Part shown: in pieces, positions 18,032-48,700 of the stretch
How the letters are laid out: every line of letters starts with the position of its first letter
Numbering within the stretch: the stretch's first letter is position 1
NCBI GenBank assembly: GCA_016875225.1
Contig: VGRW01000002.1
Coordinates: 1 to 64,000, forward strand
Direction of reading: 5' to 3'
DNA length: 64,000 bases
From: Deltaproteobacteria bacterium
GTDB lineage: Bacteria; Myxococcota_A; UBA9160; SZUA-336
Program-made: the position numbers and the translations under genes
Notes under the pieces: model-generated
Told to the model about the DNA's origin: nothing
Seen by the model: the letters and a program-made list of their open reading frames with translations, nothing else
Databases searched by the model: none

Positions 18032-20308
18032 GTGAAGCGACCCGCGGCAAAACGCTCGGCCAGAACGGAGCCCCGGCTTCCCGGACGGCTCGAGGCCGAG
18101 GCCGTCGCGGTCACGCTCGCTGCTCTCGCCCTCTTCACGGAGGCGGCGCTGCTCTCCTACGATCCCGCCGATCCGCTGATCGCGAGCGGCGCGCGGGTCT
18201 CGAACTGGTGCGGCCCGGTCGGTGCCCTCGTCGCGGGAGCTCTCGCGGGAACTCTGGGCCTGGCGGCCCACGTGCTGCCGTTCGCCGCCGGCGTGGTCGC
18301 GATTCGCTACCTGCGAGGGCTTCCGTTTCGGCCGCGCTGGATTCCCTTGGCCGGTTGGTCGCTGAGCCTGCTCAGCCTCGCGGCGGGATTCGAGGTGCTG
18401 CACCGCGCGTTTCCGGAGACGATCCCCGTCGGCGCGGGCGGATTCCTGGGCGCTGGCGTCGTCGGGCCGCTGTCGCGGGCCCTCTACCTGGCCGGGTCTT
18501 CGTTCGTCCTGTTGATCACGGGCGCGCTCGGTCTGCTCGCAGCCACGGGGGTCTCGCTGCGAGATGCGACCCAGGGAGCGCGGCAGCTCGCGCGCGCGGC
18601 GACGCGCGAGCTCGGTCAGCTCGTGCGCGTGAACGGCGCGCGACTCCGACGGCGTCTCGCCGAGCGCGCGGAGGCCAGAGCTGCAGAGCGCGACGAGCCC
18701 GAGCCCGAGGAGGCGGAGGCGCGCAAGGCTCCCAGACCCGCGCTCCGTCTCACACCGAAGCAAAAGGCGAAGGCCGGCGAGCCGGAGGTCGTCGAGCATC
18801 GCGTCGCCGCCCCCGCGCCACTGCGTCAGGAGGCATTGCCCTTCGCCGACGGACGCGGCGAGGGGCCCTACAAGCTTCCGGACCTGGATCTGCTCGCGCG
18901 CGGTCCGGACCAGAGCCCGAATCTCGATCGCGACGCGCTGATCCGGAATTCGCAGATCCTCGAGAAGAAGCTCGCCGACTTCTCGGTGCTCGGGCGGGTG
19001 GTGAAGGTGCACCCCGGCCCGGTGATCACGATGTACGAGTTCGAGCCTGCGCCGGGTGTGAAGGTCTCGCGCATCGTCAATCTCTCGGACGATCTCGCGC
19101 TGGCGCTGCGCGCGATCTCCGTGCGCATCGTCGCGCCGATCCCGGGCAAGAACGTGGTCGGAATCGAGGTGCCGAACGTCGAGCGCGACGTGGTGGTGAT
19201 CCGCGACGTGATCGCGCATCCGTGCTTCCAGGAGACCGACTCGCGAATTCCGATCGCGCTCGGCAAGGACATCTTCGGCAATCCCGTGACGGCCGACCTC
19301 GCCGCGACACCGCACCTGCTCGTCGCTGGCGCCACGGGAACCGGCAAGTCGGTATTCCTGAACGCGTTGCTCTGCAGCATCCTCATGCGTTCGACGCCGG
19401 AAGAGGTGAAGCTTCTGCTCGTCGATCCGAAGATGCTCGAGTTCTCGCTCTATCAGGGCGTTCCGCATCTGATCGCCGACGTCGTCACGAATCCGAAGCG
19501 GGCCGCTGCGGCTCTGCTCGGCATCGTGAACAAGATGGAAGAGCGCTACCAGCTGATGGCGAAGCGCGGCGTCCGGAACATCGATCAGTACAACAAGGCG
19601 ATCGCCAAGGATCTCGCGACGAATCGACCGAAGGCCGACGACGAGATCGTCCCGAAGAAGCTTCCCTACATCGTCGTCGTGATCGACGAGCTCGCCGATC
19701 TGATGATCGTCGCGGCGCGCGACGTCGAGGAGTCGCTGATGCGGCTGGCGCAGATGGCGCGAGCTGCCGGGATCCACCTCGTGCTCGCGACGCAGCGTCC
19801 GAGCGTCGACGTCCTGACGGGCATCATCAAGGCGAACTTCCCGTCGCGCATCTCGTTCCAGGTGAGCTCGCGCACGGATTCGCGCACGGTTCTGGACGCA
19901 AATGGTGCGGAGCGCCTTCTGGGCATGGGCGACCTGCTCTACGTGCCGCCCGGAAGCTCAAAGCTCGAACGCATCCATGGGCCGTACATCTCCGAGAAGG
20001 AGGTCGAAGCGGTCACCCTCTGGGTACGCCAGCAGGGTTCGCCAGAATTCGACCCGACGCTGATTCGTCTGAGCCAGGAGAGCGAGAAGACCGAGGAGCG
20101 CGGAGGAGAGCTCGACGAGCTCTTCGATCAGGCCGTGGACGTGGTCGCTCGCAATCGCATCGCGTCGATCTCGTTCGTCCAACGCAAGCTGAAGATCGGA
20201 TACAACCGGTCGGCGCGGATTCTGGAGCAGATGGAAGCCGACGGGATCGTCGGACCTCAAGAGGGAACCAAGCCCCGTGAAATCTTCGTCCGTCCGCCCG
20301 ACGACTAG
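18032..20308 (+). CDS. ftsK: DNA translocase FtsK/SpoIIIE
   Basis: A protein of about 758 residues that pumps DNA at the division septum and aids chromosome dimer resolution. Residues about 25-190 contain four membrane helices. A charged, Ala/Glu-rich linker follows (about 195-270), then the motor with Walker A G-A-T-G-T-G-K-S (near 433), Walker B I-V-V-V-I-D-E-L-A-D-L, and the A-T-Q-R-P-S-V-D-V segment. The C-terminal gamma winged helix (I-A-S-I-S-F-V-Q-R-K-L-K-I-G-Y-N-R-S-A-R) reads KOPS-type sites. The start is uncertain: GTG 18032 is chosen, TTG 18020 is in frame. It overlaps lolA by 32 bp. Confidence 0.95.
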   Translation: MKRPAAKRSARTEPRLPGRLEAEAVAVTLAALALFTEAALLSYDPADPLIASGARVSNWCGPVGALVAGALAGTLGLAAHVLPFAAGVVAIRYLRGLPFRPRWIPLAGWSLSLLSLAAGFEVLHRAFPETIPVGAGGFLGAGVVGPLSRALYLAGSSFVLLITGALGLLAATGVSLRDATQGARQLARAATRELGQLVRVNGARLRRRLAERAEARAAERDEPEPEEAEARKAPRPALRLTPKQKAKAGEPEVVEHRVAAPAPLRQEALPFADGRGEGPYKLPDLDLLARGPDQSPNLDRDALIRNSQILEKKLADFSVLGRVVKVHPGPVITMYEFEPAPGVKVSRIVNLSDDLALALRAISVRIVAPIPGKNVVGIEVPNVERDVVVIRDVIAHPCFQETDSRIPIALGKDIFGNPVTADLAATPHLLVAGATGTGKSVFLNALLCSILMRSTPEEVKLLLVDPKMLEFSLYQGVPHLIADVVTNPKRAAAALLGIVNKMEERYQLMAKRGVRNIDQYNKAIAKDLATNRPKADDEIVPKKLPYIVVVIDELADLMIVAARDVEESLMRLAQMARAAGIHLVLATQRPSVDVLTGIIKANFPSRISFQVSSRTDSRTVLDANGAERLLGMGDLLYVPPGSSKLERIHGPYISEKEVEAVTLWVRQQGSPEFDPTLIRLSQESEKTEERGGELDELFDQAVDVVARNRIASISFVQRKLKIGYNRSARILEQMEADGIVGPQEGTKPREIFVRPPDD

Positions 20309-20954
20309 CGCATGCGCCCTGCTGGCGTGTCTGGCGCTCGCGCTCGTCGCTGCAGAGGCGGACGACGAGGCCGGCCGAACGCTCGATGCCGTTCAGAAGC
20401 GCTATGACGGCGTCCGCGACCTGCGCGCGAGTTTCGAACAGACGAGCTTCAGCGCGGCGCTTGGCACGGAGACCACGTCCAGGGGTGCGGTGACCGTCGA
20501 GAGGCCGGGGCGGATGCGCTGGGAGTACGCCGCGCCCGACGGGCGCGTGATCGTGCTCGACAAGGACTCGATCCGGATCTGGAATCCCGACGAGAAGCAG
20601 CTTCAGATTGCGGCGCTCTCCGAGGGAAACGTCTCACCGACAGCGCTCGGCTTCCTGCTCGGCCAGTCCGTTCTGCGAGAAACGTTCGATGCGGAGCTGA
20701 TCTCCGAGCCCGCGCGTGCGGAGCGCGGCCTGCGCCTGCGACCGCGAAGCGACGGCGGCTTCGAGTCGCTCGAGCTCTGGGTCGATCCGAAGACGCTCCA
20801 GCTGCGGGAGTCGGTGGTCCTCGATCTGTTCGGCAATCGGACTCGCCTCCGCCTCGGGCAGATGCGCGAGAACGCGGGCGTCGAGGCGCGCGAGTTCGAA
20901 TTCCCCGTCCCTGCGGGTGCGGAGGTCATCGATCTGCGAGCGAGGGGTCGATGA
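20277..20954 (+). CDS. lolA: Outer-membrane lipoprotein carrier protein
   Basis: A 225-residue periplasmic chaperone that ferries lipoproteins from LolCDE to the outer membrane. A signal peptide spans about residues 10-26 (C-A-L-L-A-C-L-A-L-A-L-V-A-A). The mature part has the LolA hallmarks: D-L-R-A-S-F-E-Q-T, then R-P-G-R-M-R-W-E-Y, then D-x-x-x-I-R-I-W-N-P-D-E-K-Q-L-Q. The GTG start lies inside the end of ftsK, so expression is coupled to it. ftsK-lolA adjacency is a classic Gram-negative arrangement. With bamD and lgt it shows a true lipoprotein-bearing outer membrane. Confidence 0.93.
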   Translation: MKSSSVRPTTSACALLACLALALVAAEADDEAGRTLDAVQKRYDGVRDLRASFEQTSFSAALGTETTSRGAVTVERPGRMRWEYAAPDGRVIVLDKDSIRIWNPDEKQLQIAALSEGNVSPTALGFLLGQSVLRETFDAELISEPARAERGLRLRPRSDGGFESLELWVDPKTLQLRESVVLDLFGNRTRLRLGQMRENAGVEAREFEFPVPAGAEVIDLRARGR

Positions 20955-21465: not shown

Positions 21466-23298
21466 ATGAGCGACACGGGTTCGGGTTCGGGTTCCGGGAG
21501 GAGAGGGTTCGTCCGAGACGTGATGAAACGCATCTCCGTGTCTCGCGGAGCTGATGACGAACGGGAGAGCCGCGTGCCTGACGAGATGGACGAGATCGAG
21601 AAGGTTCGAGACTCACTGCGCTTCCTGGGGCCCGAGTCGGCCGATCTTGCGCGGCGGGTCGAACACCTGCTGATGGAATACGAGCTGCTGCGACAGCGCA
21701 TCGACCGGCAGCGGCAGCAGGTCTTCGACTCGGAGCGCCAGAACGAGAAGCTCGTCGGCGCGCTGCAGGACGCGAAGCAGCAGATCGACCTGCTGAAGCA
21801 GGAAGTCGACAAGCTCTGCTCGCCACCCAACACCTACGGGATATTCGAGCGCAGCAACAAGGACGGAACCTGCGAGATCAACGTCGACGGCAAGATGATG
21901 CGGGTGAACTCGCACCCGAGCATCCACGTCGAGGAGCTGATGGAAGGCCAGCTGGTCGTGTTGAACGAGGCGTTCAACATCGTCGACGCGACCACCTTCG
22001 ATCCGCGCGGCGAGGTGATGACCGTTTCCGACGTGCTCGACGACGGCCGGGTGATCGTCCTCGGTCATGCCGACGAGGAGCGGGTGGTGAGCCTCGCGCA
22101 GCCGATGCGGCGCGAGAAGCTCAAGGCCGGCGACAACCTGCTCGTGAATCCGCGCACCGGGTTCGGCGTCGAGCGCCTGCCGAAGTCGACCGTCGACCAG
22201 GTCATGCTCGAGGAGGTCCCCGACGTCACGTACGAGGACATCGGAGGTCTCGGCGACCAGATCGAGGTCCTGCGCGACGCGATCGAGCTGCCGTATCTGC
22301 ACGCGGACCGGTTCAAGCGCTACAACCTGTCGCCGCCGAAGGGCATTCTGCTCTACGGACCTCCGGGCTGCGGCAAGACCATGATCGGCAAGGCGGTGGC
22401 GAACAGCCTCGCGCTACGCATCCAGGAGATGCGCGGCGGCGAAGCGAAGAGCTACTTCCTGAACGTGAAGGGGCCGGAGCTCCTGAACAAGTACGTCGGC
22501 GAGACCGAGCACAAGATCCGCGAGGTGTTCAAGAACGCGCGCGAGAAGGCGGAGGAGGACGTCCCGGTCGTCATCTTCTTCGACGAGATGGACTCGCTGT
22601 TCCGGATGCGCGGTTCCGGGATCTCCTCCGACATGGAGGCGACCGTCGTCGCGCAGTTCCTCTCGGAGATCGACGGCATCGAGTCGCTGCGGAACGTGAT
22701 CGTGATCGGCGCGAGCAACCGGCAGGATCTGATCGATCCGGCCGTGCTTCGCCCGGGCCGTCTCGATCTGAAGGTCAAGGTGCACCGGCCGGAGAAGGCG
22801 GGGGCGCTGCAGATCTTCACCAAGTACCTGACGACGGATCTCCCGTTCAGCCAGGACGCGACGCGGAAGTACGGGCCCGAACCGAAGGAAATCGTGCGCG
22901 GCATCCTCTCGGAGACGGTCGAATCGATGTATGCGGAGAACGAGGAGAACAAGTTCCTCGAGGTCACGTACGCGAAGGGCGAGCGGGAGATCTTCTACTT
23001 CAAGGACTTCTCGAGCGGCGCGATGCTGAAGAACATCGTCGACCGGGCCAAGAAGAAGGCGGTGAAGCGCGCGATCACCTCGGACGACGAGGGCGTGCGT
23101 CTCTCGGACATGCTCGAGTCCGTGCGCGAGGAGTTCAAGGAGAACGAGGATCTCCCGAACACCACCAACCCCGACGACTGGGCGCGGATCTCCGGCCGGA
23201 AGGGCGAGCGCATCATCAACGTCCGCACGCTCATCACCGGCATGAGTCGCACGGAGCACCAGATCGAGAACGTCGGCGGCTCGGGGCAGTATCTCTGA
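21466..23298 (+). CDS. mpa: Proteasome-activating AAA+ ATPase (Mpa/ARC)
   Basis: A 610-residue AAA+ ring ATPase that recognises pupylated proteins and threads them into the 20S core. A coiled coil occupies about residues 50-112 (the Pup-binding region). Two OB-fold segments follow, then one AAA domain with Walker A G-P-P-G-C-G-K-T (about 298-305), Walker B V-V-I-F-F-D-E-M-D (about 366-374) and R-P-G-R-L-D. The C-terminus is G-S-G-Q-Y-L, the same penultimate-Tyr tail that mycobacterial Mpa uses to dock into and open the 20S gate. ATG 21466 is chosen because GAGGAA lies 5 nt upstream. The first gene of the operon; dop starts 1 nt after its stop. Confidence 0.97.
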   Translation: MSDTGSGSGSGRRGFVRDVMKRISVSRGADDERESRVPDEMDEIEKVRDSLRFLGPESADLARRVEHLLMEYELLRQRIDRQRQQVFDSERQNEKLVGALQDAKQQIDLLKQEVDKLCSPPNTYGIFERSNKDGTCEINVDGKMMRVNSHPSIHVEELMEGQLVVLNEAFNIVDATTFDPRGEVMTVSDVLDDGRVIVLGHADEERVVSLAQPMRREKLKAGDNLLVNPRTGFGVERLPKSTVDQVMLEEVPDVTYEDIGGLGDQIEVLRDAIELPYLHADRFKRYNLSPPKGILLYGPPGCGKTMIGKAVANSLALRIQEMRGGEAKSYFLNVKGPELLNKYVGETEHKIREVFKNAREKAEEDVPVVIFFDEMDSLFRMRGSGISSDMEATVVAQFLSEIDGIESLRNVIVIGASNRQDLIDPAVLRPGRLDLKVKVHRPEKAGALQIFTKYLTTDLPFSQDATRKYGPEPKEIVRGILSETVESMYAENEENKFLEVTYAKGEREIFYFKDFSSGAMLKNIVDRAKKKAVKRAITSDDEGVRLSDMLESVREEFKENEDLPNTTNPDDWARISGRKGERIINVRTLITGMSRTEHQIENVGGSGQYL

Positions 23299-23299
23299 C

Positions 23300-24787
23300 A
23301 TGCCACTTCCGTGTGTATTCGGCAGCGAGATCGAATACGGGATCACCGTCCAGGGAGACCCGGACTTCGATCCGATCTCGAGCTGCGTCCTGCTGGTCAA
23401 CGCGTACCAGGACATCGAGGACGCGCGAATACTCTGGGACTACGAGCAGGAGAACCCGCTGGCCGACGCTCGCGGCTTCCACGTCGAGGGCGAGAAGTAC
23501 ACGCCCAACCAGCAGGAGAACATCGCGCGCAACAAGACGCTCCGGAACGGCGCGCGCTTCTACGTGGACCACGCGCACCCGGAGTACTCGACGCCAGAGG
23601 TCACGAACGTCCGCGATCTGATCGCGTTCGAACGCGCCGGCGAGCGCACGATGGAGGCGGCGAGGCGCGCCGCCACGGCTCTTCTGCCCAGCGGACAGAC
23701 GGTCCTGATCCACAAGAACAACAGCGACCGCAAGGGCAACTCCTACGGGAATCACGAAAACTACCTGATCGAGCGCCGGACGCCGTTTCGCGAGATCGTC
23801 GAGCACATGACGCCGTTCCTGGTCACGCGCAACATCTTCTGTGGCGCGGGCAAGGCCGGCAGCGAGAACCGCGCGCAGCCGTGCGACTACCAGATCAGCC
23901 AGCGGGCCGACTTCTTCGAGACCGAGGTCGCGCTCGACACGATGGTGAAGCGGCCGATCATCAACACACGCGACGAGCCCCATGCGGATCGCGAGAAGTA
24001 CCGACGCTTCCACGTGATCATCGGCGACTCGAATCTCTGCGAGGTCTCCACGTATCTGCGGATGGGCACGACTGCGGTCGTGCTCGCCCTCGTCGAGGAC
24101 GGGGCGATTCCGAGGAGTCTCGCGGTCAGCGATCCGGTCAAGGTCGTGAAGGAGATCTCCCACGACCTCGCGTGCAAACGAAGCTACGCCATGGAGCGCG
24201 GCGGACGCCTGACCGCGATCGAGATCCAGAAGGAATACCTGGAGTACGCGCTGCGCTACTTCTCGTCCCGCAGCCTCGACCCGATCGTGAAGGACGTCCT
24301 GGTCAGGTGGGAGCGCGTGCTGTCGAAGCTCGCAGAGGATCCGCTACAGCTCGACCGAGAGGTCGACTGGGTGATCAAGCACAAGCTGATCACGAGCTAC
24401 ATGAAGCGGCACGGTGTGGACTGGCACCATCCGCAGGTCCACATGCTCGATCTGCAGTACCACGACATCCGCCCCGACAAGGGCCTCTACCACGTGCTCG
24501 AGCGACGCGGCGAGGTCGACCGGATCGTCGATTCCGATGCGATCGAGCGCGCCGTGCGGACTCCTCCGAGCGACACTCGCGCCTACTTCCGCGGCGAGTG
24601 CATCCGACGCTATCCTGATGAAGTGTTCGGCGTGAACTGGGATTCGATCTCGTTCAACGTCGGCGACGAGCCGATCAAGCGCATCCTCATGAACGAACCG
24701 CTGAAGGGCACGCGGGCGCACGTGGGCGAGCTGCTCGACTCGAGTCCGACGGCCCGAGTTCTGGTTCAGAACCTCACGACCGCGTGA
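23300..24787 (+). CDS. dop: Pup deamidase/depupylase
   Basis: A 495-residue Dop, a carboxylate-amine ligase-fold enzyme that removes Pup from substrates and, where Pup ends in Gln, deamidates it. The nucleotide/Mg site starts at F-G-S-E-I-E-Y-G-I, and the catalytic aspartate lies in F-Y-V-D-H-A-H-P-E-Y-S-T-P-E. The segment between them (about residues 35-85) is the extra Dop loop that PafA lacks. Other family motifs are H-K-N-N-S-D-R-K-G-N-S-Y-G and N-T-R-D-E-P-H-A-D. Because the neighbouring Pup already ends in Glu, depupylation is the likely main role. Coupled to mpa (1-nt gap) and followed by pup 15 bp later. Confidence 0.95.
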   Translation: MPLPCVFGSEIEYGITVQGDPDFDPISSCVLLVNAYQDIEDARILWDYEQENPLADARGFHVEGEKYTPNQQENIARNKTLRNGARFYVDHAHPEYSTPEVTNVRDLIAFERAGERTMEAARRAATALLPSGQTVLIHKNNSDRKGNSYGNHENYLIERRTPFREIVEHMTPFLVTRNIFCGAGKAGSENRAQPCDYQISQRADFFETEVALDTMVKRPIINTRDEPHADREKYRRFHVIIGDSNLCEVSTYLRMGTTAVVLALVEDGAIPRSLAVSDPVKVVKEISHDLACKRSYAMERGGRLTAIEIQKEYLEYALRYFSSRSLDPIVKDVLVRWERVLSKLAEDPLQLDREVDWVIKHKLITSYMKRHGVDWHHPQVHMLDLQYHDIRPDKGLYHVLERRGEVDRIVDSDAIERAVRTPPSDTRAYFRGECIRRYPDEVFGVNWDSISFNVGDEPIKRILMNEPLKGTRAHVGELLDSSPTARVLVQNLTTA

Positions 24788-24802
24788 GCTAGGGAGAGAG
24801 GC

Positions 24803-25060
24803 ATGAAGATCGTACGACCCAAGACCGAGCCGGCCACCGGCATCTGGGGCGCCGCGGGCGACCAGACGCAGAAGCAGAAGTCCGGTGGCGGCGACTCGAG
24901 CGGCTCTTCCTCCTCCGACGCCGGCGGGCAGAAGAAGCTCGCCAAGAAGGGCGAAGACCTGAAGGAAGAGATGGACAACCTGATCGACGAGATCGACGAG
25001 GTCCTCGAGGCGAATGCCGAGGAGTTCGTGAAGAACTACGTCCAGCGCGGCGGCGAGTAG
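24803..25060 (+). CDS. pup: Prokaryotic ubiquitin-like protein Pup, GGE-ending
   Basis: An 85-residue Pup, the tag that PafA joins through its C-terminal glutamate to substrate lysines. The C-terminal half matches mycobacterial Pup closely: I-D-E-I-D-E-V-L-E-A-N-A-E-E-F-V-K-N-Y-V, then Q-R-G-G-E. It ends in Glu, not Gln, so no deamidation is needed before ligation. It is some 20 residues longer than the 64-residue M. tuberculosis Pup; the extra N-terminal part (G-I-W-G-A-A-G-D-Q and a Ser/Gly run) should be the disordered strand that the Mpa pore engages. GAGAGAGG lies before the ATG. Too short and low-complexity for automatic calling, but context makes it certain. Confidence 0.96.
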   Translation: MKIVRPKTEPATGIWGAAGDQTQKQKSGGGDSSGSSSSDAGGQKKLAKKGEDLKEEMDNLIDEIDEVLEANAEEFVKNYVQRGGE

Positions 25061-25064
25061 CCCG

Positions 25065-25847
25065 GTGTTCAAAGGCCAGACGTACGCCGGTGACAGCTTC
25101 TACGAGTTCCTCCGCGTCGACCACCCGGGGCTGCTTCCCGACTGGACGCGAATGGATTGGACGCAGGTCTCGCTGCTCCACGGAACCACCGTGCTCGCGA
25201 TCGTCTGCAAGGAAGGCGCTCTGATGGCGGGCGACCGGCTCGCCACCGAAGGCCACCAGGTCGGCACGCGGGATCTCGAGAAGGTGTTCCGCATCGACGA
25301 ATCGAGCCTGATGGCGATCGCCGGCGCCGCGGGCCCGGCGATCGAGATGGTCCGGATGTTCCAGCTCGAGCTCGAGCACTTCGAGAAGCTCGACGGTCAG
25401 CCGCTGACCTTCGAGGGCAAGGCGAACCGGCTCTCGTTCCTGCTGCGCCAGAATCTGCCCGCTGCGATGCAGGGCTTGGTCGTGATGCCGATCTTCGCGG
25501 GCTTCGATCACGACAAGGGTCGCGGCCGCATCTACAAGTTCGACATCACCGGCGGTCGCTTCCGCGAGGCCGACTACTACTCCACCGGATCGGGCGGCAA
25601 GGACGCGAGGAGCTCGTTGAAGCGGATCGTGCGCCACGAAGACCTCTCCCGCGAGGAGGCGATTCGCGCCGCGATCGAGGCTCTGCTCGATGCCGCCGAC
25701 GAGGATCGCGCCACGGGCGGCATCGATGTGGCGCGCGGCATCTTCCCGACCGTGAAGCTCGCGACGCGCTCCGGTGTCGAGGACGTCAAGGACGAGGAGC
25801 TGAAGCGCATCCACGAGGCGATCGCGGCCGAGAGGAGAGCCGCCTGA
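25065..25847 (+). CDS. prcB: 20S proteasome beta subunit
   Basis: A 260-residue beta subunit carrying the protease activity. A 40-residue propeptide ends in L-L-H-G, and autocleavage would expose Thr41 (mature Thr1) of T-T-V-L-A-I-V. Counting from it, Asp17 (M-A-G-D-R) and Lys33 (D-L-E-K-V-F) fall exactly at the catalytic positions of active proteasomes. The Y-S-T-G-S-G-G segment of the beta fold is also present. Two rings of seven assemble with PrcA. GTG 25065 starts 4 nt after pup; the stop overlaps the prcA ATG (TGATG). Confidence 0.97.
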   Translation: MFKGQTYAGDSFYEFLRVDHPGLLPDWTRMDWTQVSLLHGTTVLAIVCKEGALMAGDRLATEGHQVGTRDLEKVFRIDESSLMAIAGAAGPAIEMVRMFQLELEHFEKLDGQPLTFEGKANRLSFLLRQNLPAAMQGLVVMPIFAGFDHDKGRGRIYKFDITGGRFREADYYSTGSGGKDARSSLKRIVRHEDLSREEAIRAAIEALLDAADEDRATGGIDVARGIFPTVKLATRSGVEDVKDEELKRIHEAIAAERRAA

Positions 25848-26536
25848 TGAGCACACCCTTCTACGTCTCTCCCGAGCAGTGGTACCAGGACAAGGCCGAG
25901 TACGCGCGCAAGGGAATCGCGCGCGGGCGGCCGATCGTCGCGCTCGAGTACGAGACCGGCATCGTGATGATGGCCGAGAACCGCAGCGCCACGCTGCGCA
26001 AGATCTCGGAGATCTACGACCGCATCGCGTTCGGCGGGGTCGGAAAGCTCGACGAGTACGAGACGCTGCGGAAGTCCGGCGTGCGCTACGCCGACATGCG
26101 CGGCTACTCGTTCTCGCGCGAGGACGTGGCCGGCAAGAGCCTGGCGAACGAGTACTCCAACGTCCTCGGCTCGGTCTTCACGCGCGAGATGAAGCCGCTC
26201 GAGGTGGAGATCCTCGTGGTCGAGATCAAGGAGAACGGGAGCGCCCTCTATCAGATCCGTTACGACGGAAGCATGAGCGACATGACCCACTTCGCGACGA
26301 TCGGCGGGGACGGCGACAAGCTCGGCGACCTGATTCGCGCCGGCTGGAAGCCGGGGATGCCGCTCAAGGACGCCGCGAAGCTGGCTCGTCGCGCGCTCGC
26401 CGGCTCAGGGAACTCGGGATCGGTCGAAGACCTCGACGAGAAGAGCCTCGAGATCGCGATACTCGACCGGACGCGCACGGGACGTACCTTCAGGCGGATC
26501 GCGGGCGAGGAGGCCAGGGCTCTCCTCCGGGATTGA
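25847..26536 (+). CDS. prcA: 20S proteasome alpha subunit
   Basis: A 229-residue alpha subunit forming the outer gating rings. The N-terminus M-S-T-P-F-Y-V-S-P-E-Q-W and A-R-K-G-I-A-R-G matches the gate and H0 helix of actinobacterial PrcA almost residue by residue. There is no propeptide and no N-terminal Thr, as expected for the non-catalytic subunit. The last residues (E-E-A-R-A-L-L-R-D) differ from the long actinobacterial tail. The ATG overlaps the prcB stop by one base, consistent with 1:1 synthesis. It is followed by pafA after 13 bp. Confidence 0.96.
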   Translation: MSTPFYVSPEQWYQDKAEYARKGIARGRPIVALEYETGIVMMAENRSATLRKISEIYDRIAFGGVGKLDEYETLRKSGVRYADMRGYSFSREDVAGKSLANEYSNVLGSVFTREMKPLEVEILVVEIKENGSALYQIRYDGSMSDMTHFATIGGDGDKLGDLIRAGWKPGMPLKDAAKLARRALAGSGNSGSVEDLDEKSLEIAILDRTRTGRTFRRIAGEEARALLRD

Positions 26537-26549
26537 TCGGCGGAAACAA

Positions 26550-27956
26550 GTGCAGAAGCGGATCTACGGCCTCGAGACGGAATACGGGATCATCTTCACG
26601 CCGGAGGGTCGCAAGACCCTGCCGGTGGAGAAGGCGATCCGCTTCCTGTTCGAGAAGCTGATCACGACCGAGCACTTCCTGAACGTGTTCCTCGAGAACG
26701 GGGCGCGCTTCTACCAGGACACCGGCTGCCACCCCGAGTACGCGACGCCCGAGTGCGCGAGCCCGCGGGACCTGGTCATATTCGATCGCGCCGGCGAGCG
26801 CATCCTGGAGGACCTGCAGCTCTACGCGGAGGAGAAGATCCGCGAGGAGCGCGTCCCCGGGAAGCTCTCGATCTTCAAGAACAACACCGACTTCGTCGGG
26901 AACTCCTACGGCTGCCACGAGAACTACCTGGTCGACCGCGACGTCGACTTCTACTACCTCGCCGAGCAGCTGATTCCGTTCCTGGTCACGCGCCAGATCT
27001 TCAGCGGCGCGGGCAAGGTGTTCCAGACGCAGGACGGCGTGCACTACTGCATCAGCCAGCGCGCGCAGCACATCTACCAGAAGATCTCGGGCACGACGAC
27101 GAACGACCGCTCGATCATCAACACGCGCGACGAGCCCCACGCCGATCGCGAGAAGTACCGCAGGCTGCACGTGATCGTGGGCGACTCGAACATGAGCGAG
27201 TACACGAACTTCGTGAAGATCGCGACGGCCGCGGTCGTGCTGCAGATGATCGAGGACGGGTTCATCAACAAGGACTTCACGCTCCGACACCCCGTGAAGG
27301 CGATCAAGGACATCTCCTACGACACGACCTGCAAGCGCAAGCTGCGGCTCGAGAACGGGCGCGAGTACTCGCCGATCGAGATCCAGCGCGACTACTGCGA
27401 GATGGCGCAGCGCTACATGGAGCAGTTCCCCGTGAGCGACCAGCTTCGCGAGGGCGTCCGCGAGTGGCAGTACATCCTCGACTGCCTCGACAGCGACCCC
27501 GAGAAGCTCGATCGCAAGATCGACTGGATCATCAAGCGCAAGGTGCTGCGCAGCTACATCGAGAAGCACCAGATCTCCTGGCACGACCCGCGCGTCTTCA
27601 TGATCGACCTGCAGTTCCACGACCTGCGCCGCGACCGCGGCTTCTTCTACATGCTCGAGCGCGGCGGGCACGTCGATCGGCTCTACACCGACTCGGAGAT
27701 CGAGAAGGCGAAGACCGAGCCGCCTCAGGACACGCGCGCGAGGATGCGCGGCGATTTCATCAAGCTGGCCCGCCAGAACAACATCCAGTACGACCTCGAC
27801 TGGTCGAACATCCGGCTGGGAAACCTCCTGAACGTCCGCGTGATCTGCAACAACCCGTTCGAGACCGACACCGAGAAGGTCACCGAGCTCGTGCGCACGA
27901 TCCAGAAGACGAACCTGCGCCGCACCTCGCTCTCCAAACTCGTGATCCAGAGCTGA
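26550..27956 (+). CDS. pafA: Pup-protein ligase
   Basis: A 468-residue ligase that activates the C-terminal Glu of Pup with ATP and joins it to substrate lysines. The motifs are G-L-E-T-E-Y-G-I (metal/ATP), F-Y-Q-D-T-G-C-H-P-E-Y-A-T-P-E with the catalytic Asp, F-K-N-N-T-D-F-V-G-N-S-Y-G, and N-T-R-D-E-P-H-A-D. It lacks the Dop-specific insertion, which separates it from the paralogue at 23300-24787. The GTG start (26550) is 13 bp downstream of prcA. It is the last recognised member of the proteasome operon, and an unknown membrane gene follows 4 bp later. Confidence 0.96.
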   Translation: MQKRIYGLETEYGIIFTPEGRKTLPVEKAIRFLFEKLITTEHFLNVFLENGARFYQDTGCHPEYATPECASPRDLVIFDRAGERILEDLQLYAEEKIREERVPGKLSIFKNNTDFVGNSYGCHENYLVDRDVDFYYLAEQLIPFLVTRQIFSGAGKVFQTQDGVHYCISQRAQHIYQKISGTTTNDRSIINTRDEPHADREKYRRLHVIVGDSNMSEYTNFVKIATAAVVLQMIEDGFINKDFTLRHPVKAIKDISYDTTCKRKLRLENGREYSPIEIQRDYCEMAQRYMEQFPVSDQLREGVREWQYILDCLDSDPEKLDRKIDWIIKRKVLRSYIEKHQISWHDPRVFMIDLQFHDLRRDRGFFYMLERGGHVDRLYTDSEIEKAKTEPPQDTRARMRGDFIKLARQNNIQYDLDWSNIRLGNLLNVRVICNNPFETDTEKVTELVRTIQKTNLRRTSLSKLVIQS

Positions 27957-27960
27957 ACCC

Positions 27961-28347
27961 ATGGACCAGGAACCCAAGCTCCGCTCCGTTTCCCCCACTG
28001 CCGCCGAGTCGCGCCGCGATCCGGCGTCGCGATCCGAGCCGGACCGGCCGCAGAACCGGACGCAGCTGGTGCTGGCGACCGCGCTCGCGCTGGCGCTCGT
28101 CCTGCTGATCTGGAGCTACATCTCGCTCGGCTCCCGCATCGACTCGCTCGAAGGCGAAGCGCAGCTCCTGCGCGCGGCTGTCGCCGAACGGGACGAGCTA
28201 ATCAACGCCCAACGCGCCCGGCTCGACGAGGTCCGCGGCCGCGTGAAGGATCTGCTCCAGATCGTCGAGCAGCCGATGATCAGCGCGCCCGCCGCGGGAC
28301 CCGAAGCGCCCGAGGCGTCGCCCGCGCCGCCCCCCGAAGACCCGTAG
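27961..28347 (+). CDS. Small single-pass membrane protein with coiled coil, in the proteasome operon
   Basis: A 128-residue protein that I do not recognise. Residues 1-34 are polar and Pro/Arg-rich. Residues about 36-56 form one membrane helix (T-Q-L-V-L-A-T-A-L-A-L-A-L-V-L-L-I-W). Residues about 60-102 form a heptad-bearing coiled coil (I-D-S-L-E-G-E-A-Q-L-L and V-K-D-L-L-Q-I-V-E). A Pro/Ala/Glu tail ends it. The positive N-terminus suggests the tail lies outside and the N-terminus in the cytoplasm. Only 4 bp separate it from pafA, so it is almost surely co-transcribed with the proteasome genes. Whether it is part of that system is inference; it could equally be a cell-shape accessory of mreB. 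Confidence 0.7.
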   Translation: MDQEPKLRSVSPTAAESRRDPASRSEPDRPQNRTQLVLATALALALVLLIWSYISLGSRIDSLEGEAQLLRAAVAERDELINAQRARLDEVRGRVKDLLQIVEQPMISAPAAGPEAPEASPAPPPEDP

Positions 28348-28449: not shown

Positions 28450-29484
<1,035 letters not shown>

Positions 29485-40827: not shown

Positions 40828-42729
40828 ATGGGCGTGCGCAGCGGAATTCGGACGCTCTCGATTCTGCTCGTGGTCTTCGCCCTTCCGCTGCCAGCGCGGG
40901 CGAGCTTCGACCCGAGCGATCCCCCGGCGGGCGAGCACACCCGGACCGAGGGCCCGCGCTACGCGATCGGGGAGATCGAGCTCCGCTACGCCGAGAACCA
41001 CCTGCTGCACCCGCCGGTCGACCTGGTGAGCTCCGGGCAGTACGGACTCGGGCGGGCCTCCGACGGCTACGTGGGCGCGCGCCGCGGCGGCGACATCGAG
41101 TGGTTCGAGCTCCGCGATCTCGGCGTGGACGGCGCGGTTCCCGTCTACGCGACGGGGCTCCGCGACCTCTGCGAGCAGATCGTCGCCGAGCTCGGCGAGC
41201 GCGGGCTGATCGGCGTGTACGTCGCCCCCGATCCGGCGCAGATCGATCCCGACACCGGCGCCGATCTGCGCGAGGACACCACCACGCTCGCGCTCGTGAT
41301 CCACACCGGCCGGGTGCGCGCGGTGCGCACGTTCACCGCGGGCGAGGCGCCCCCCGGCGCGCTACCGCCGGTACAGGAATCGCCAGAGCACGAGCAGATC
41401 GCGAGCCGCTCGCCGCTCCAGCCCGTCGGCGCCGGCGACCCGCTCGCCAAGCGCGAGCTCGACGCCTACGTCGCGACGCTGAACCGACTTCCCGGCCGCG
41501 TCGTCGACGTCGTGATCACGCCGACGCTCACGCCCGGCGTGGTGAACCTCGACTATCTCGTCTCCGAGCAGCGGCCCTGGACGATCTCGAGCTCGATCTC
41601 CGACACGGGGACCGACCAGACCGGCGAGATGCGCCAGCGCTTCAGCTTCGCGAGCTACCAGCTCACCGGTCACGACGACGTGCTTCTGCTCGACTACATG
41701 ACCGCGAGCTTCGACGAGGTGAACGCGCTGGCCGGCTCGTACGAGGCGAATCTGCCGCTGGCCTTCGGCCTGCGCGGTCGCCTGAACGGCTCCTGGAGCG
41801 AGTACGCCGCGGACCAGTTCGGCCTCAGCAACGCCTTCGAGGGCGAGCAGTTCGAGATCGGCGGCGCGCTCGTGTCGAGCCTGGTCCGGCGGCCGGGCTT
41901 CTTCGTCGACGCCACGCTCGGCGCGCGCTGGATGGACATCGACGTCACGAACCTGAGCACGAGCGCGAGCATGCCGTTCTTCGTGCCCGAGCTCGCGCTC
42001 TCGCTCGAGCGCACGCGTTCGACCTCGCGCGTGTTCGCGCGCCTCGGCTTCGAGCAGAGCCTGCCGTTCCTGGCCGGCACGAGCTCGAGCGACCTCGACG
42101 ACTTCTCCGCCGCCGGCCGCAGCGACGTCGACGACAGCTGGCGGCTGGTCTCGCTCGACGTGCGCGGATCGTTCTTCCTGCGCCCCTGGCTGCGCGGTGT
42201 GCCCGTGCGGGACGGCCGCACGCTGCGCCCGCGAGAGCTGGTGCACGAGATCGCCTGGCGACTCGGCGGCCAGTACTCACTCGGCACGCGCCTGATCGCG
42301 CAGGTCGAGGGCGTGCTGGGCGGCCCGGGCACCGTGCGCGGCTACCCGCAGTCGATCGTCGCGGGCGACTCGATGCTCGGCGGCAGCATCGAGTACCGCT
42401 ACCACATCCCGCTGTCGCTTTCGGCGACGGTTCCGTGGCAGCTGCCGTGGCTCGGCGAGTTCCGGCCCGGACCGGACGCGAATCAGCGCATGCCCGACTG
42501 GGACTTCGTGATCGCGACCTTCTACGACTACGGCCAGACCTGGAACGACCAGGCCGTTGCCGGCGAGGAAGACGCGACGCTCTCGTCGCTGGGTCTGGGC
42601 CTGGAGATCGTCGTGCGGCAGAACCTATCGCTGCGGATCGACCACGGCTTCGTGCTCAGCGACGTGGAGGCCGCGGACGTCTCGTCGGGCGACAGCAAGA
42701 CGAACTTCGCCGCGACGGTGCGGTATTAG
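40828..42729 (+). CDS. Two-partner secretion outer-membrane transporter (TpsB/FhaC-ShlB type)
   Basis: A 633-residue protein with a signal peptide (T-L-S-I-L-L-V-V-F-A-L-P-L-P-A-R-A). It continues with a POTRA-containing periplasmic part (about residues 100-255, with L-N-R-L-P-G-R-V-V-D-V near its end, as in ShlB). From about 260 on there is a C-terminal Omp85-type 16-strand barrel, with the V-R-G-Y-P-Q motif of the pore loop (about residue 507) and a final aromatic-ended strand (A-A-T-V-R-Y). It exports the TpsA protein encoded 2 bp downstream. ATG 40828 has GGGAG 5 nt upstream. Homology within the POTRA region is weak, which hints at a divergent recognition module. Confidence 0.88.
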   Translation: MGVRSGIRTLSILLVVFALPLPARASFDPSDPPAGEHTRTEGPRYAIGEIELRYAENHLLHPPVDLVSSGQYGLGRASDGYVGARRGGDIEWFELRDLGVDGAVPVYATGLRDLCEQIVAELGERGLIGVYVAPDPAQIDPDTGADLREDTTTLALVIHTGRVRAVRTFTAGEAPPGALPPVQESPEHEQIASRSPLQPVGAGDPLAKRELDAYVATLNRLPGRVVDVVITPTLTPGVVNLDYLVSEQRPWTISSSISDTGTDQTGEMRQRFSFASYQLTGHDDVLLLDYMTASFDEVNALAGSYEANLPLAFGLRGRLNGSWSEYAADQFGLSNAFEGEQFEIGGALVSSLVRRPGFFVDATLGARWMDIDVTNLSTSASMPFFVPELALSLERTRSTSRVFARLGFEQSLPFLAGTSSSDLDDFSAAGRSDVDDSWRLVSLDVRGSFFLRPWLRGVPVRDGRTLRPRELVHEIAWRLGGQYSLGTRLIAQVEGVLGGPGTVRGYPQSIVAGDSMLGGSIEYRYHIPLSLSATVPWQLPWLGEFRPGPDANQRMPDWDFVIATFYDYGQTWNDQAVAGEEDATLSSLGLGLEIVVRQNLSLRIDHGFVLSDVEAADVSSGDSKTNFAATVRY

Positions 42730-42731
42730 CC

Positions 42732-45700
42732 ATGAAGACCCTGCGAACGCTCCCCGGACTGATCGCGCGCGACGCGCTGGTCTCCTTTCTGGTCGCGGCG
42801 ATCGCGGCCGGGCCCGCGGCGCTTCCCGCGCTCGCCGGTCCGCGCGGTGAGTCGGTGCGGCGTGGCGACGTCTCGATCGACCACGTGGAGGGGAGCACCA
42901 ACTGGGTGATCCACGCCTCCGACGGCAGCATCATCCAGTACGACAGCTTCGACATCGCGCTCGGCGAGGCGGTGCAGTTCATCCAGACGCGGAACGGCGT
43001 CGTGAACGACGACGCGCGTGTGCTGAACCGCATCCTCGGCGACGCACCCACGCGGATCGAGGGCTCGCTCACCGGGAACGGCCACATCTACATCGTGAAC
43101 CCCGCCGGCGTGTTCTTCGCCGACGGCGCCGTGGTGAACGCCAACGCGATCCACGCCGCGGGCGGCCGCCTGTCCGACGCCGACTTCGCGAGCGGGGTCG
43201 ACCATTACACCGGTGTGTACGGCGACGTGGGGAACGCCGGCGAGATCGCCGCTTCGGCCGTCAGCCTGGTCGGAGCGCAGGTCACGAACTCCGGGCGGAT
43301 CATCGCCGAGGCCGGCTGGATCGTGATGGCCGCCGGCAACGACGTGCTGATCGGTCGCGACGACGGCGGCCGAGGGTACCTGCTTCGCGTCGAGGGCGCG
43401 GCCAGCTCGGTCTTCGACCAGAACGCGACGGGCGTGTCGAATACGGGCGAGATCTCCGCAGGAGCCGACGGCACGGTCCGCGTCGGCGCGGGCGATCTCT
43501 ACGGCACGGCGATCTTCAGCAACCAGGCGATCCGCGCGCGCGAGATCGCGCTCGCGGCCGGCAATCGCGGCGACGTCGCGCTTGCCGGCGCGGTCGAGGC
43601 GGAGAAGCTCGACGTTTCGTTCCGCGGAGCGACGCCGGGCGAGCTGCGCAGCGCGGCGGCCGCGGGCGAGACCACGACCGTTCGCGCCGACGAGCTCCGG
43701 CTCTCCGCGAGCGGCTCGGGCGCGCAGGTCACCGTCGGCGACGGCCTTGCGTTTCGCAGCCGAGACGACGCCGCGCAGGGTCCGGGCAAGGTCACGCTCC
43801 AGCAGTCGGCGTCGCTCGCGAGCTCTCGGCTCGCCGCGCTCGATCTCGGCGCCAGCGCGGGACGCGAGATCACGCTCTTCTCGACCGGAAGCAGCGTGGT
43901 CATCGACGACAAGGCCGTCGTCGCGGATAGCCACCTTGCGCTGACCGGCACGACCTCCGAGATCCGCGGCACGGACGCGCTCCAGGTCAGGTCGCTCGCG
44001 GTGACCGGCAACGCCAGCTCGCAGGGCGACCTCGTCGCGAGCGAGGGCGACATCGCGGTGAGCGGAAACCTCCAGCTCGTCACCAAGCCGGTGGAGACGG
44101 GAGACCCCGAGCCCGAGACGCTCGTCTCGGCCCACCAGGGCACGCTGGACGTGAACGGAAACGTGAGCACGAGCGCCGGCGGCCGGCTCCGGCTCGAGGC
44201 GCGCGACGTCGCGATCGGCGGCACCGCCGCCGACGGCACTCCGCTGGCGGGCGCGATCACCTCGCGCGGCGCCGTCCAGATCGGCTTTGCCGACGCTGGC
44301 GTGGAGCAGACGCAGACGGTTCGCGTCAATTCCATCGACACGCGCGGCGCGAGCGGCGCCGAGGGCGGGAACGTCGCGGTGGCGGCGAGCGGCGACGTGA
44401 CGATCGGCGCGATCGCGACCAGCGGCGGCGCGGCGAGCTCGTCGTCGCGACCTCCGCTGGACGGCGGCTCGGTGTCGGTCCGCACGGGCGCAGCCGCAAC
44501 GCTCGAGATCGGCTCCGTCGCGACCGGCGGCGGCAGCGATGTGGAGAAGGGCACGATCGACCTCTCGGCGGGAACCGTCCGGCTCTCAGGGCCGCTCGAC
44601 GCGACCGGCGGCTCGATCTCGAACGCGGACGGCGCGCGCGATCGCGCGGTTCAGGTACAGGGAGACATCCGGCTCGCCGCGAACTCGCTCAGCATCGCGG
44701 GCGGCGACGTCCACCTCGACGGCGCGATCTCCGGAGCAGAGGTCGTTCCCGCGACGGACCCGCCCACGACGCGCCGGGTCGATCTCCGCATCGCCGCGAG
44801 CGGAGAGACGCGCCTCGGCTCGAGCGCCGACCTGCGGTCGCTGTCGATCTCGAGCACGGGCGACTCGGTCGTGCTCGGCGGAGACGTCGTCGCGGACCGC
44901 TCCATCGCCATCGCCTTCGAGGGGTCGGGCACGGGAACGGTCTCGAACGCCGGCACCGACGTCGCACTCCACACCAACCGCGTGGAGCTCGCAGCTTCCG
45001 ATTCGAGCCAGACGGACGGCCGCACGGCGCAGATCGTGCTCGGCGAGGGCGTGCACCTCGACCTCGAGGCGATCACCGGAACCGCTCCGGCGCCCGCGAC
45101 GCTCGTGCTCGATCAGGATGGCGCAATCGACAGCGCCGCCGTCTCGCGTCTGGCGGATGCCGCCTCGGGCGTGACCGATCTGGCGCTCTCGCTGCGCTCG
45201 AACGACGCCGTCTCGCTCGACGCCGCCTCGCGAGCCGATCTGGCGGGTCTCTCCGGCATCGACCTCGCGATCGTCGCGCGGAGCTTCAGCGCGCTCGGCG
45301 CGACGCAGACCGCCAGCGACTTCACGCTCTCCTCGTTGGATCTTACGACGCGGGATGCGCTCGACGTCGACTTCGGCGTGACCGCGGAGAGCGTGAGCCT
45401 GGCCGGCGGCGCCAGCGGAACGGGCGACCTCCTGCTTCGCTCGGAGCTTCGCGCCGACACGATCCGCCTGCTCGCCGGCGACGGCGCGGGCGGCGCGGGG
45501 GCGGCGTCCAAGATCGAGATCGCGGCCGGAGGCAGCTTGCGGAGCCGCTCGGACGCGAGCGCTCAGCCGACGCGCGTCGATCTGATCCAGGACGCCGCGC
45601 TCGACAGCGCCGCTCTTCCGGACGCCGATGTATTCGGGGCCGCGGGCGTCGCAGGCCTCGACTACCGGCTCCAGTCTCGCGACGGGGCGATCAGCCTCTC

Positions 45701-48700
45701 CGCGGGCAGCTCGGCCAAGTTCACCGGCAGCCGACTCGATCTGCGCGGTCAGACGGGCATCGATCTCGGGGCCGAGCCGCTCTCGCTCGCCTCGCTCACG
45801 GCCGAAACTCCCGCCGGACTCGTGGTGGGCGCGCGTATCGACGCCGACGAGAAGATCCGCCTGCGTGCGGGCTCGGACGGAACCGGCGACCTCGAGATCG
45901 GCGCGCGCCTGGCTTCGGACGAGATCGAGCTCGTGGCGGGCTCCGGCAACGGCACCGATCTGTCGGCCAGGGTTCTGCTCTCGGAAGGCGCGCGCTTCTC
46001 GGCGGCTTCGAGCGACGCCGCGCCGGGCAGCTTCACGCTCGAGCAGGACGCGGCGATCGGCGCGACGAGCGCGGGCGTGCCGAACACGGCGCTCCCCGGC
46101 CTCGCGGTCTTCGGCGGCAGCGTCGCCGGGATGGACTACGCGCTGCGCTCGAAGGGCGCGAGCGTGCGAATCGACGACACCTCTGTCGTGGCGGGCTCGA
46201 ATCTCGCGCTCGCGGGCGATACGGGCGTCGACATCAACGGCAACCTCGACGTGGCCGGGCTCGAGCTCGAGACCGCCGCGAATCTCTCGGGAAGCGTCGC
46301 GAGCTCGGGCGACGTCACGATTCGCGGCCCGCTCTCGCTCGACGGAACGGGCGCTCAGAGCCTCTCGGCGGGAGCGGGCGTTCTCGGCGCCACCGGCGCG
46401 ATCTCGAAGCAGGGCGCCGGGGCGCTCGCGCTTTCCGGACGGCAGGTCAGCGTCTCTACGGTCACGACCGGGCGAACCGGCGACTCACTCTCGATCACCG
46501 CCAGCGAGGGAGTCACGACCGGCGCGCTCAACGCGTCGGGCTCGCTCGGCATGGACGGCGGCGACGTCTCGATCGACGGCGGCACCGGGTCGGTCGTGAT
46601 CGCCAGCGTCACGACCCGCGGTGCGAGCGGACCGGTGTCGACCACGGCTCCGACCGACGGACGCGACGGCGGCGATGTCGCGGTTTCGGGCGCGACGATC
46701 GCGATCGGCAGCGTGGACAGCCGCGGCGGCGACGCGAGCGCGATCGCGACGGGCACGACCGAGATCACGCGGCAAGGCGGCGACGCGGGCGCGATCACGC
46801 TTTCCGCGGGCCAGATCACCCTGACCTCGGGTCTCGACGCCAGCGGCGGCGCGGGGGCCGCGAGCTCCCCGAGTCTGGTTGCCGGGCTGGCCGGTGACTC
46901 GGCGGACGTGCTCGTGGATGGCGCGCTTCGTCTCGGAGCGAACGCGACGACCGGCATCGTGAACTCGATCCGCGGTGACCACGTGGCGGTGACCGGCGCG
47001 GTGAGCCGCGCGGACGGCCGCGCCGCGGGCGAGACGGCGCTCGTCGTCGCCGCAAAGCGCGGGATCTCCTTCGGCGGAGACCTCTCGGCGGGCCGGATCG
47101 ACCTCGAGCTCGCCAGCGGAAATCTCGAGCTCGCGGCGGGCGGAGTGGGCCAGATCTCGGCGGACACGATCCGGCTTTCGGCGAGCGACGGAAACGGCGG
47201 CAGCACGACCGGCGAGGTGATGCTCACGGGCCTGCTGCTCGCGAACGAGGCCGGAGACGCGGCGCCGAAGTCGTTCACGCTCGATCAGGATCGCTCGATC
47301 GGCGGCGCGTCCGGCTCGGCCGTGCCGGACGGCGGGCTGTTCCTGGGCGGCTCGATCAGCGGCGCCGGCCACTCGGTCGCGCTGATCTCGCACGACGGCG
47401 AGGTCGCGCTGGGTCCGAGCGAGGTCGCGACGTTCGCCGGCACGAGCCTCACCCTGGCCGCGAACGGTCTGGCGGGAAGCACGGGCTACGCGGTCCGCGT
47501 CGACGGCTCGGGCCTCGACCTCGCCTCGCTCGCGATCGGCAGCGACGTGAACGGCGTGCGCGTCGACGGCGACGCGCGCATCGACGGCGATCTGGTCGTG
47601 GGCAGCTCCGGATTCCTCTCGTACGCCGACGTCGACGTCGTGGGCGGCGCGGTGATCGGCGGACCCGCGCGATTCCTCGGCACGGGTGACCAGGTGCTGC
47701 GCGTCGGCGCGGGCGAGACCCTCGAGCTCGGCGGCGCGCTCACGTCGAAGAGCACCGACGGCAAGCTCACCCTCGACGCGGACCGGATCGAGCTGACGGC
47801 GAGCGGCGCGCAGACGATCGAGAGTCGCTTCGGAAAGCTCGAGATCGGCTCTGCGGCAGGCACCGGTCTGGTGCGCGGCAGCTTCGACGCCTCGGGCGCG
47901 CCGGATCCGGCGAGCGCGCGCTCCGATCTCACCCTGCGCGGCTCCGCGGTGGACGGAACCGGACCTGCGATCACCGTGCACGGCACGCGAACGCTCGGCG
48001 ACGGTCGCAGCTACGCGCTCGCGCTCGCCAACGGCGACCTGCTCGTCGACGCGCGCGCGATCGCGTCGGAGACGAACGCGACGCCCGGTCCCGCGACGTG
48101 GGCGGCGGACGGCGACGTGCTCGCGTACGGAGACGTCGACCTGAAGGGCCGCGGAGTGCTGGCCGGCGGCGCGGCGGACTACGCGATCACGGCGCGGCGC
48201 TTCGGGACTTCTGCGACGAGCTTGCGAGGCGGCGTGCTGCGAATCGGCGGCATCGCCAGCGTCGACGGGAATCTCGCGCTGCGCGCCGATGGCGACGCTC
48301 CGACCGCGCTGGCCCCCGACCCGAGCGCCGTCTTCCTCGGCGGCGAGTTCGATCTGGCGCACGACCTGGTGGTCTCTGGAACGACGGAGACGAGCGCCGA
48401 CTCGGGGATTCGCGCGGCTGGCGACGTGGTCTTCGAGTCGCTTGTCCGCGGCACCGGTGATCTCTCGGTCGAGAGCGAGGGCCGCATCGACCTGCGGAGC
48501 GACGTCGCGCTCAGCGGATCCGATTTCGCGGCCTTGGGCGCGGAGGGGATCGCGTTCTCCTCGACGCAGCCGCTCCAGACGATCTCGGCGGGGAGCGTCT
48601 CGTTCGGGTCCGGGAATACGGCGCCCGCGGGCGCTCCGATCCTCCTGTACCGAGACGGCGACCTCGCGCTGCAGGCCACGTCGGGCAACGTGGAGTTCGG

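Follow-up and report, generated by a model that had tools for sequence, protein, structure and literature searches.

The Pup-proteasome locus

Among bacteria, the proteasome is generally regarded as a peculiarity of Actinobacteria. Here, a complete Pup-proteasome operon is described from a "Deltaproteobacteria bacterium" that is placed by GTDB in the class UBA9160 of the phylum Myxococcota_A (GenBank assembly GCA_016875225.1; draft genome of 3.87 Mb, 97.8% complete). The stretch analysed, hereafter the window, covers the initial 64 kb of the 122,888-bp contig VGRW01000002.1. It contains mpa, dop, pup, prcB, prcA and pafA in this order, all on the plus strand and with successive gaps of 1, 15, 4, -1 and 13 bp. 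The open reading frames (ORFs) and the matches to curated families for all six genes confirm the co-directional, closely packed arrangement (gaps of -1 to 15 bp) reported in a preliminary description of this DNA, and chance resemblance is not in question as an account of it.

The first gene, mpa (21466-23298), encodes a proteasome-associated AAA ATPase with OB domains, a Walker A motif (GPPGCGKT) and a C-terminal GQYL, which aligns with Mpa of M. tuberculosis and scores 720 bits against the NCBIfam equivalog pup_AAA (TIGR03689; cut-off 505). The depupylase/deamidase gene dop (23300-24787) follows, whose product contains GhExE, NGARFYVDHAHPEY and an alignable Dop-loop, is 50% identical to Acidothermus Dop and scores 579 bits (TIGR03688, depupylase_Dop; cut-off 492). 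The only Pup found in the genome is encoded at 24803-25060; it has 85 residues, ends in FVKNYVQRGGE and matches PF05639 (66 bits) and TIGR03687 (pupylate_cterm, 57 bits; cut-off 41). The 20S beta subunit gene prcB (25065-25847; TIGR03690, 20S_bact_beta, 273 bits; cut-off 192) specifies a 40-residue propeptide and then Thr1, with GTT as the mature N-terminus and an alignment to the Rhodococcus beta subunit from Thr1 onward, and the product of the alpha subunit gene prcA (25847-26536; TIGR03691, 20S_bact_alpha, 280 bits; cut-off 139) begins with MSTPFYVSP and is 47% identical to Rhodococcus PrcA. The last gene, pafA (26550-27956; PF03136, 501 bits; TIGR03686, 539 bits), encodes a Pup ligase with GLETEYG and the signature NGARFYQDTGCHPEY. 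Pfam results agreed with the equivalog assignments.

The hallmark residues noted earlier for each gene were also seen on comparison with solved structures, in which the GhExE strand and the catalytic Asp region were located in both ligase-fold enzymes. Thus, the window holds a Pup with a helical core and a C-terminal GG[EQ] (PF05639 and TIGR03687 above cut-off, GGE end), bacterial-type 20S alpha and beta subunits with an N-terminal Thr in beta, a Mpa/ARC ATPase with a C-terminal docking motif, and PafA and Dop as two separate orthologues, which fall in the respective halves of a mutually rooted tree. Judged by family matches and residues, the system is complete and looks functional.

Distribution and conservation in the class

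The spread of the system was examined in 284 genomes of the phylum, comprising 60 of the window's class and 224 of other classes. A bacterial PrcA was present in 54 of the 60 class genomes and in none of the 224, and a Pup ligase was present in 59 of the 60. Five of the six class genomes lacking PrcA have ligase genes, several of which are truncated where contigs end; the remaining genome is 74% complete. The order ftsK-lolA-mpa-dop-pup-prcB-prcA-pafA-(orf)-mreB is repeated in independent class assemblies wherever contigs reach. PafA is 81-90% identical across the class, and GQYL ends 16 of 17 class Mpa proteins. Given the class-wide presence and the recurring flanks, the Pup-proteasome is a class-wide, normally single-copy and vertically kept trait.

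The same observations bear on a technical explanation, raised in the preliminary description, in which 21-28 kb would be a chimeric join of an actinobacterial fragment to a Gram-negative contig. The GC content of the operon (62-66%) does lie a few percent under that of its flanks (~69% for the window), but both junctions were seen repeatedly in many independent class assemblies, the GC content at third codon positions (GC3) is host-like (0.88-0.97), and the products are nearest to those of other Myxococcota metagenome-assembled genomes (MAGs). In the nearest named relative, OFTM108, placed by NCBI in Myxococcota, both pafA and mreB are 90% identical to those of the window. The conserved junctions and the class-wide presence exclude such a join, whose probability is negligible. 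As for the earlier statement that base composition is like that of the neighbours, it holds for GC3 and codon usage and not for overall GC.

Between families of the class, the proteins were found to differ in conservation, with identities of 81-86% for PafA, 58-73% for Dop, 49-58% for PrcB, 48-57% for PrcA and 73-75% for the neighbouring MreB. PafA is thus by far the best conserved of the operon proteins compared and surpasses MreB as well. In addition, a record named "Spirochaeta sp. MED672" (NZGT01000100.1) has an operon and a ftsK-lolA flank that match the Myxococcota class, and its name looks wrong.

An N-terminally extended Pup

The first 18 residues of the window Pup (24803-24856) form an N-terminal extension that closes with the motif IWGAA (residues 14-18). 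Among 39 distinct class Pups, 34 are 82-97 residues long and have the motif [IL][YFW]xAA or a close form of it, including one (L028) that was matched at a spurious site and whose PLYMAA fits the rule. The distance from the motif to the C-terminus is 67.3 +/- 1.7 residues, even though the stretch ahead of the motif varies. The five remaining class Pups are short (66-69 residues) and start about where the motif ends. GGE and GGQ ends were found in 23 and 16 class Pups, respectively. The Pups of Actinobacteria and Nitrospirota that were compared have ~59-79 residues and no such motif, the few longer ones being start-codon ambiguities. Published lengths are 60-70 residues in a review (PMC3511204) and, noted earlier, 50-90 residues (PMC2588565).

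One possible objection is that the start codon has been misassigned, so that the extension would be an artefact and the true class Pups would begin at an internal Met or Val near the AA motif. In many of them, an in-frame ATG immediately precedes AA (e.g., IWMAAS), and the length left after that ATG equals that of a canonical Pup. On the other hand, no ATG, GTG or TTG occurs at this place in the window copy or in several others, the motif residues ahead of the internal Met are themselves conserved, and the upstream ATG is preceded by a Shine-Dalgarno match of 4-6/6 at a normal distance in most class pup genes, compared with mostly ~3/6 for internal in-frame starts. In the window copy, the ribosome-binding site at the upstream ATG is strong. 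An artefact of this kind is thus quite improbable, and the extension is very probably translated.

Relatives and the two system types

Relatives were sought with a degenerate DNA pattern for the ligase motif over ~85,000 species genomes, and matches were obtained in Actinobacteria, Nitrospirota, Acidobacteria, Poribacteria, Latescibacterota, Verrucomicrobia and Gemmatimonadota. Two types could be recognized. Type A, with PrcA ~40-55% identical to that of the window, includes the class, Actinobacteria and one set each from Nitrospirota, Poribacteria and an Acidobacteria MAG. Type B, sampled here from Nitrospira, Poribacteria, Latescibacterota and Verrucomicrobia, resembles the window system in gene order, families and Gram-negative hosts, but its proteins are distant (~35% identity for Mpa, 26-31% for PrcA) and its Mpa lacks the GQYL end. 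Its host range and RTGQ-type tails indicate that it probably equals the UBact systems (Lehmann et al. 2017, as cited in PMC5751360). The gene order had been described as that of actinobacteria; it is indeed the same, but it is not specific to them, since type-B systems of Nitrospirota, Poribacteria and Latescibacterota have an identical one.

Pup ligases were detected in 58 of 118 Nitrospirota genomes, many of which have four, and many have two systems. Hence, the word scattered, used in the preliminary description for the occurrence outside Actinobacteria, is an understatement, given about half of the sampled Nitrospirota and nearly every genome of the window's class. Complete type-A and type-B systems on different contigs were observed in Nitrospirota and in one Poribacteria genome (L183-L187, L190-L193; genomes G285, G287, G291 and G295, and also G286). 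Two systems in Leptospirillum ferrooxidans were reported earlier (PMC3511204).

Phylogeny and origin

Trees were built for up to 99 systems, the largest with a simpler model. In the mutually rooted Dop and PafA tree, the actinobacterial clade excludes the class, Nitrospirota and Poribacteria in the Dop half as well as in the PafA half. A mixture-model tree of five concatenated proteins, rooted on type B, recovered Actinobacteria, the class and Nitrospirota at 100/100 each, and the largest tree (45 actinobacterial, 23 Nitrospirota and 19 class systems) kept these three apart, save for one Acidobacteria MAG within Actinobacteria. The Nitrospirota type-A systems are monophyletic and the class is not nested within them. 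Type B forms a separate 100/100 clade, which rules out UBact membership of the window system. Moreover, the approximately unbiased (AU) test rejected grouping of the class with Acidimicrobiia (p 3.7e-70) and with Actinomycetes (p 5e-37), and nesting within Actinobacteria is thereby rejected for these two sampled groups.

Horizontal transfer from Actinobacteria is the general view for non-actinobacterial systems, the pathway having emerged there and then spread (PMC7947786). Such a donor would fit the lack of 20S genes in the sister classes of the phylum and the position of Actinobacteria as the largest known holders, and the AU result for the class plus all Actinobacteria (p 0.085) would allow a donor that branched from the stem of Actinobacteria or belonged to a lineage outside the sampling. 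However, the class stands outside a fully supported actinobacterial clade in both the mutually rooted and the concatenated trees, its grouping with either sampled actinobacterial group is rejected, and its PafA signature NGARFYQDTGCHPEY is common to the type-A systems of Nitrospirota and Poribacteria, Actinobacteria mostly having NGARLYLDVGSHPEY. An actinobacterial origin by horizontal transfer therefore appears unlikely. The preliminary description had proposed an early horizontal acquisition, now adapted, and had suggested phylogenies of Prc, Mpa and PafA as a check. The presence of the system is not recent and codon usage is adapted, but an actinobacterial source finds no support in the trees or AU tests, and this part of the proposal would best be dropped or put forward as one possibility only.

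Taken together, the sequence data make it likely that this is a working system with a lengthened Pup, which has been inherited vertically since the class ancestor and stands as a deep lineage in its own right, next to the lineages of Nitrospirota and Actinobacteria. The class ancestor could have obtained it either by an old transfer or by still older inheritance.

Several results count against this interpretation. The AU test rejects neither the class plus all Actinobacteria nor the class plus Nitrospirota (p 0.27), and the trees place the class differently, as sister to Nitrospirota at 87/82 in a 39-row mixture-model tree and as sister to Nitrospirota plus Actinobacteria at 91 in a larger quick tree. 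The root is provided by the distant type-B systems, which form a long branch. The absence of PrcA from the other classes of the phylum makes a transfer into the class ancestor quite possible. The 539 bits of the window PafA are slightly under the NCBIfam cut-off for pupylate_PafA (551), and the protein is thus somewhat divergent. Finally, the five class Pups without the extension indicate that it is not essential to the system.

It is a real possibility, though not a favored one, that the system passed long ago from Nitrospirota (or a lineage related to them) to the ancestor of the class, or the other way round. The class plus Nitrospirota is the best mixture-model grouping and escapes rejection, the PafA signature is shared, and mreB lies ~3 kb downstream of pafA in one Nitrospirota MAG. 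On the other side, the support values are weak, the larger quick tree has the class outside both groups, and the proximity of mreB concerns one lineage only, with different intervening genes. In that MAG (L182; JACQBY010000097.1), mreB is co-directional with the type-A pafA in a class-like arrangement; mreB was not seen near pafA in four other Nitrospirota loci examined.

The reading in which the class keeps its own deep lineage can also be taken further. The class may be a third primary lineage, equal in age to the lineages of Actinobacteria and Nitrospirota, and the Pup extension a new engagement signal (a pore grip or a contact with the 20S gate) unlike that of any characterised Pup; this combined claim is rather doubtful. 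If the class were such a lineage, the system would not simply have arisen in Actinobacteria and leaked out. A whole Gram-negative class that has the system in single copy, in one conserved place and on a branch outside Actinobacteria provides an independent reference point for the origin of pupylation and makes this question testable.

Comparison with characterised systems

Gram-negative Pup-proteasomes are already known, namely UBact and the type-A system of Leptospirillum and its relatives (De Mot 2007, as cited in PMC3511204). No study of the Pup-proteasome in the present class was found in the literature searched, and the newer elements are the class-wide spread, the probable third deep branch and the N-terminally extended Pup with a motif at a fixed position.

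The window system and the Mpa/Dop/Pup/PrcBA/PafA system of M. tuberculosis are alike in the six genes, their order, and the active-site and docking motifs (GQYL, Thr1 and GGE/GGQ). It differs from actinobacterial systems in its diderm Myxococcota host, its separate clade, a PafA only 37% identical to that of C. glutamicum and with another signature, and a Pup of 85 residues with an N-terminal motif rather than of ~59-72 residues. No match to the accessory activator Bpa/PafE was found in the genome, a difference of little weight because the search had no positive control. The type-A systems of Nitrospirota, a possible sister group, share the Gram-negative host, the operon and the PafA signature, but their Pup is short and without the extension, and their Mpa ends in GHYL or GHYF instead of GQYL. 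In many Nitrospirota the type-A system is accompanied by a type-B one; the window genome contains a single proteasome-linked set.

Proposed mechanism

Each biochemical step proposed here is carried over from characterised relatives. PafA would activate the C-terminal Glu of Pup and join Pup to lysines of target proteins; as the window Pup is encoded with GGE, no deamidation should be needed. Dop would remove Pup, and it deamidates Pup in relatives whose Pup ends in GGQ. The Pup helix is expected to bind the coiled coils of Mpa while its disordered N-terminus threads into the Mpa pore, and Mpa would dock on the 20S alpha ring via GQYL, after which Thr1 of PrcB would cleave the substrate. Binding of the Pup helix to the Mpa coiled coils, GQYL docking and the role of the Pup N-terminus as the threader, with M1 ~35 angstrom from the 20S gate, have been described (PMC8755798).

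When class Pups are aligned by their C-termini, the motif falls a few residues past the M1 point. With ~3.3 angstrom for each residue in extended form, the additional segment could stretch as far as the gate. The extension might therefore lengthen the tip that is threaded, giving the Mpa pore loops something bulky to hold ahead of a Gly/Ser-rich linker and reaching towards the 20S gate. This is the most likely role that can be suggested, albeit a tentative one. The extended Pup is also a natural experiment through which the engagement of a disordered degradation tag with the unfoldase and the proteasome gate can be studied.

Host and genomic setting

The operon is preceded by lolA (20277-20954, +; PF03548, TIGR00547) and followed by mreB (28450-29484, +; PF06723, 489 bits), which are the same neighbours as in other class loci. 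LolA and MreB beside the operon and BamD at 49652-50551, all confirmed, indicate a diderm host, in agreement with the outer membrane postulated earlier. The host had been called proteobacteria-like; those records of its lineage that carry names are Deltaproteobacteria/Myxococcota MAGs, and Myxococcota is the better name. A TpsB/TpsA pair, also listed earlier, was not confirmed; directly beside bamD lies an ORF of 2849 residues (41100-49649) without a Pfam match. HslV was identified in the genome itself and in 28 of 30 class genomes listed, which rules out the proteasome as a substitute for a lost HslUV.

Between pafA and mreB, orf128 (27961-28347, +) encodes an apparent single membrane segment and a coiled coil and had no Pfam or NCBIfam match. 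In most of the class loci examined, an ORF of similar make-up is found at this position, and it may belong to the operon or go with mreB.

Outside the class, the type-A system of Acidobacteria bacterium REEB96 (L188/L082) lies inside Actinobacteria, representing a true transfer or a mis-binned contig. In phage and plasmid collections, the matches were two actinobacterial records and a single "phage" record lacking annotation. Positions 43724-45100 of MT835496.1, a 159-kb faecal record labelled "Bacteriophage sp.", encode a PafA-like protein (37% identity at 97% coverage); this record may be a mislabelled bacterial contig.

Besides PafA and Dop, the window genome encodes a third Pup-ligase homologue of ~610 residues (L003; G000:C83:2300-4012, minus strand). 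Its H-x-[NH] strand is followed by a hydrophobic, membrane-type insertion, and its gene lies outside the operon, with fpg and gatC on either side. No second Pup was found in the genome, and no Pup or proteasome genes were seen linked to this paralogue. It is of the same kind as the membrane-inserted Pup ligase of Plesiocystis and Rhodopirellula (PMC2588565), and similar copies occur in ~10 class genomes and in ~10 genomes from other classes of the phylum.

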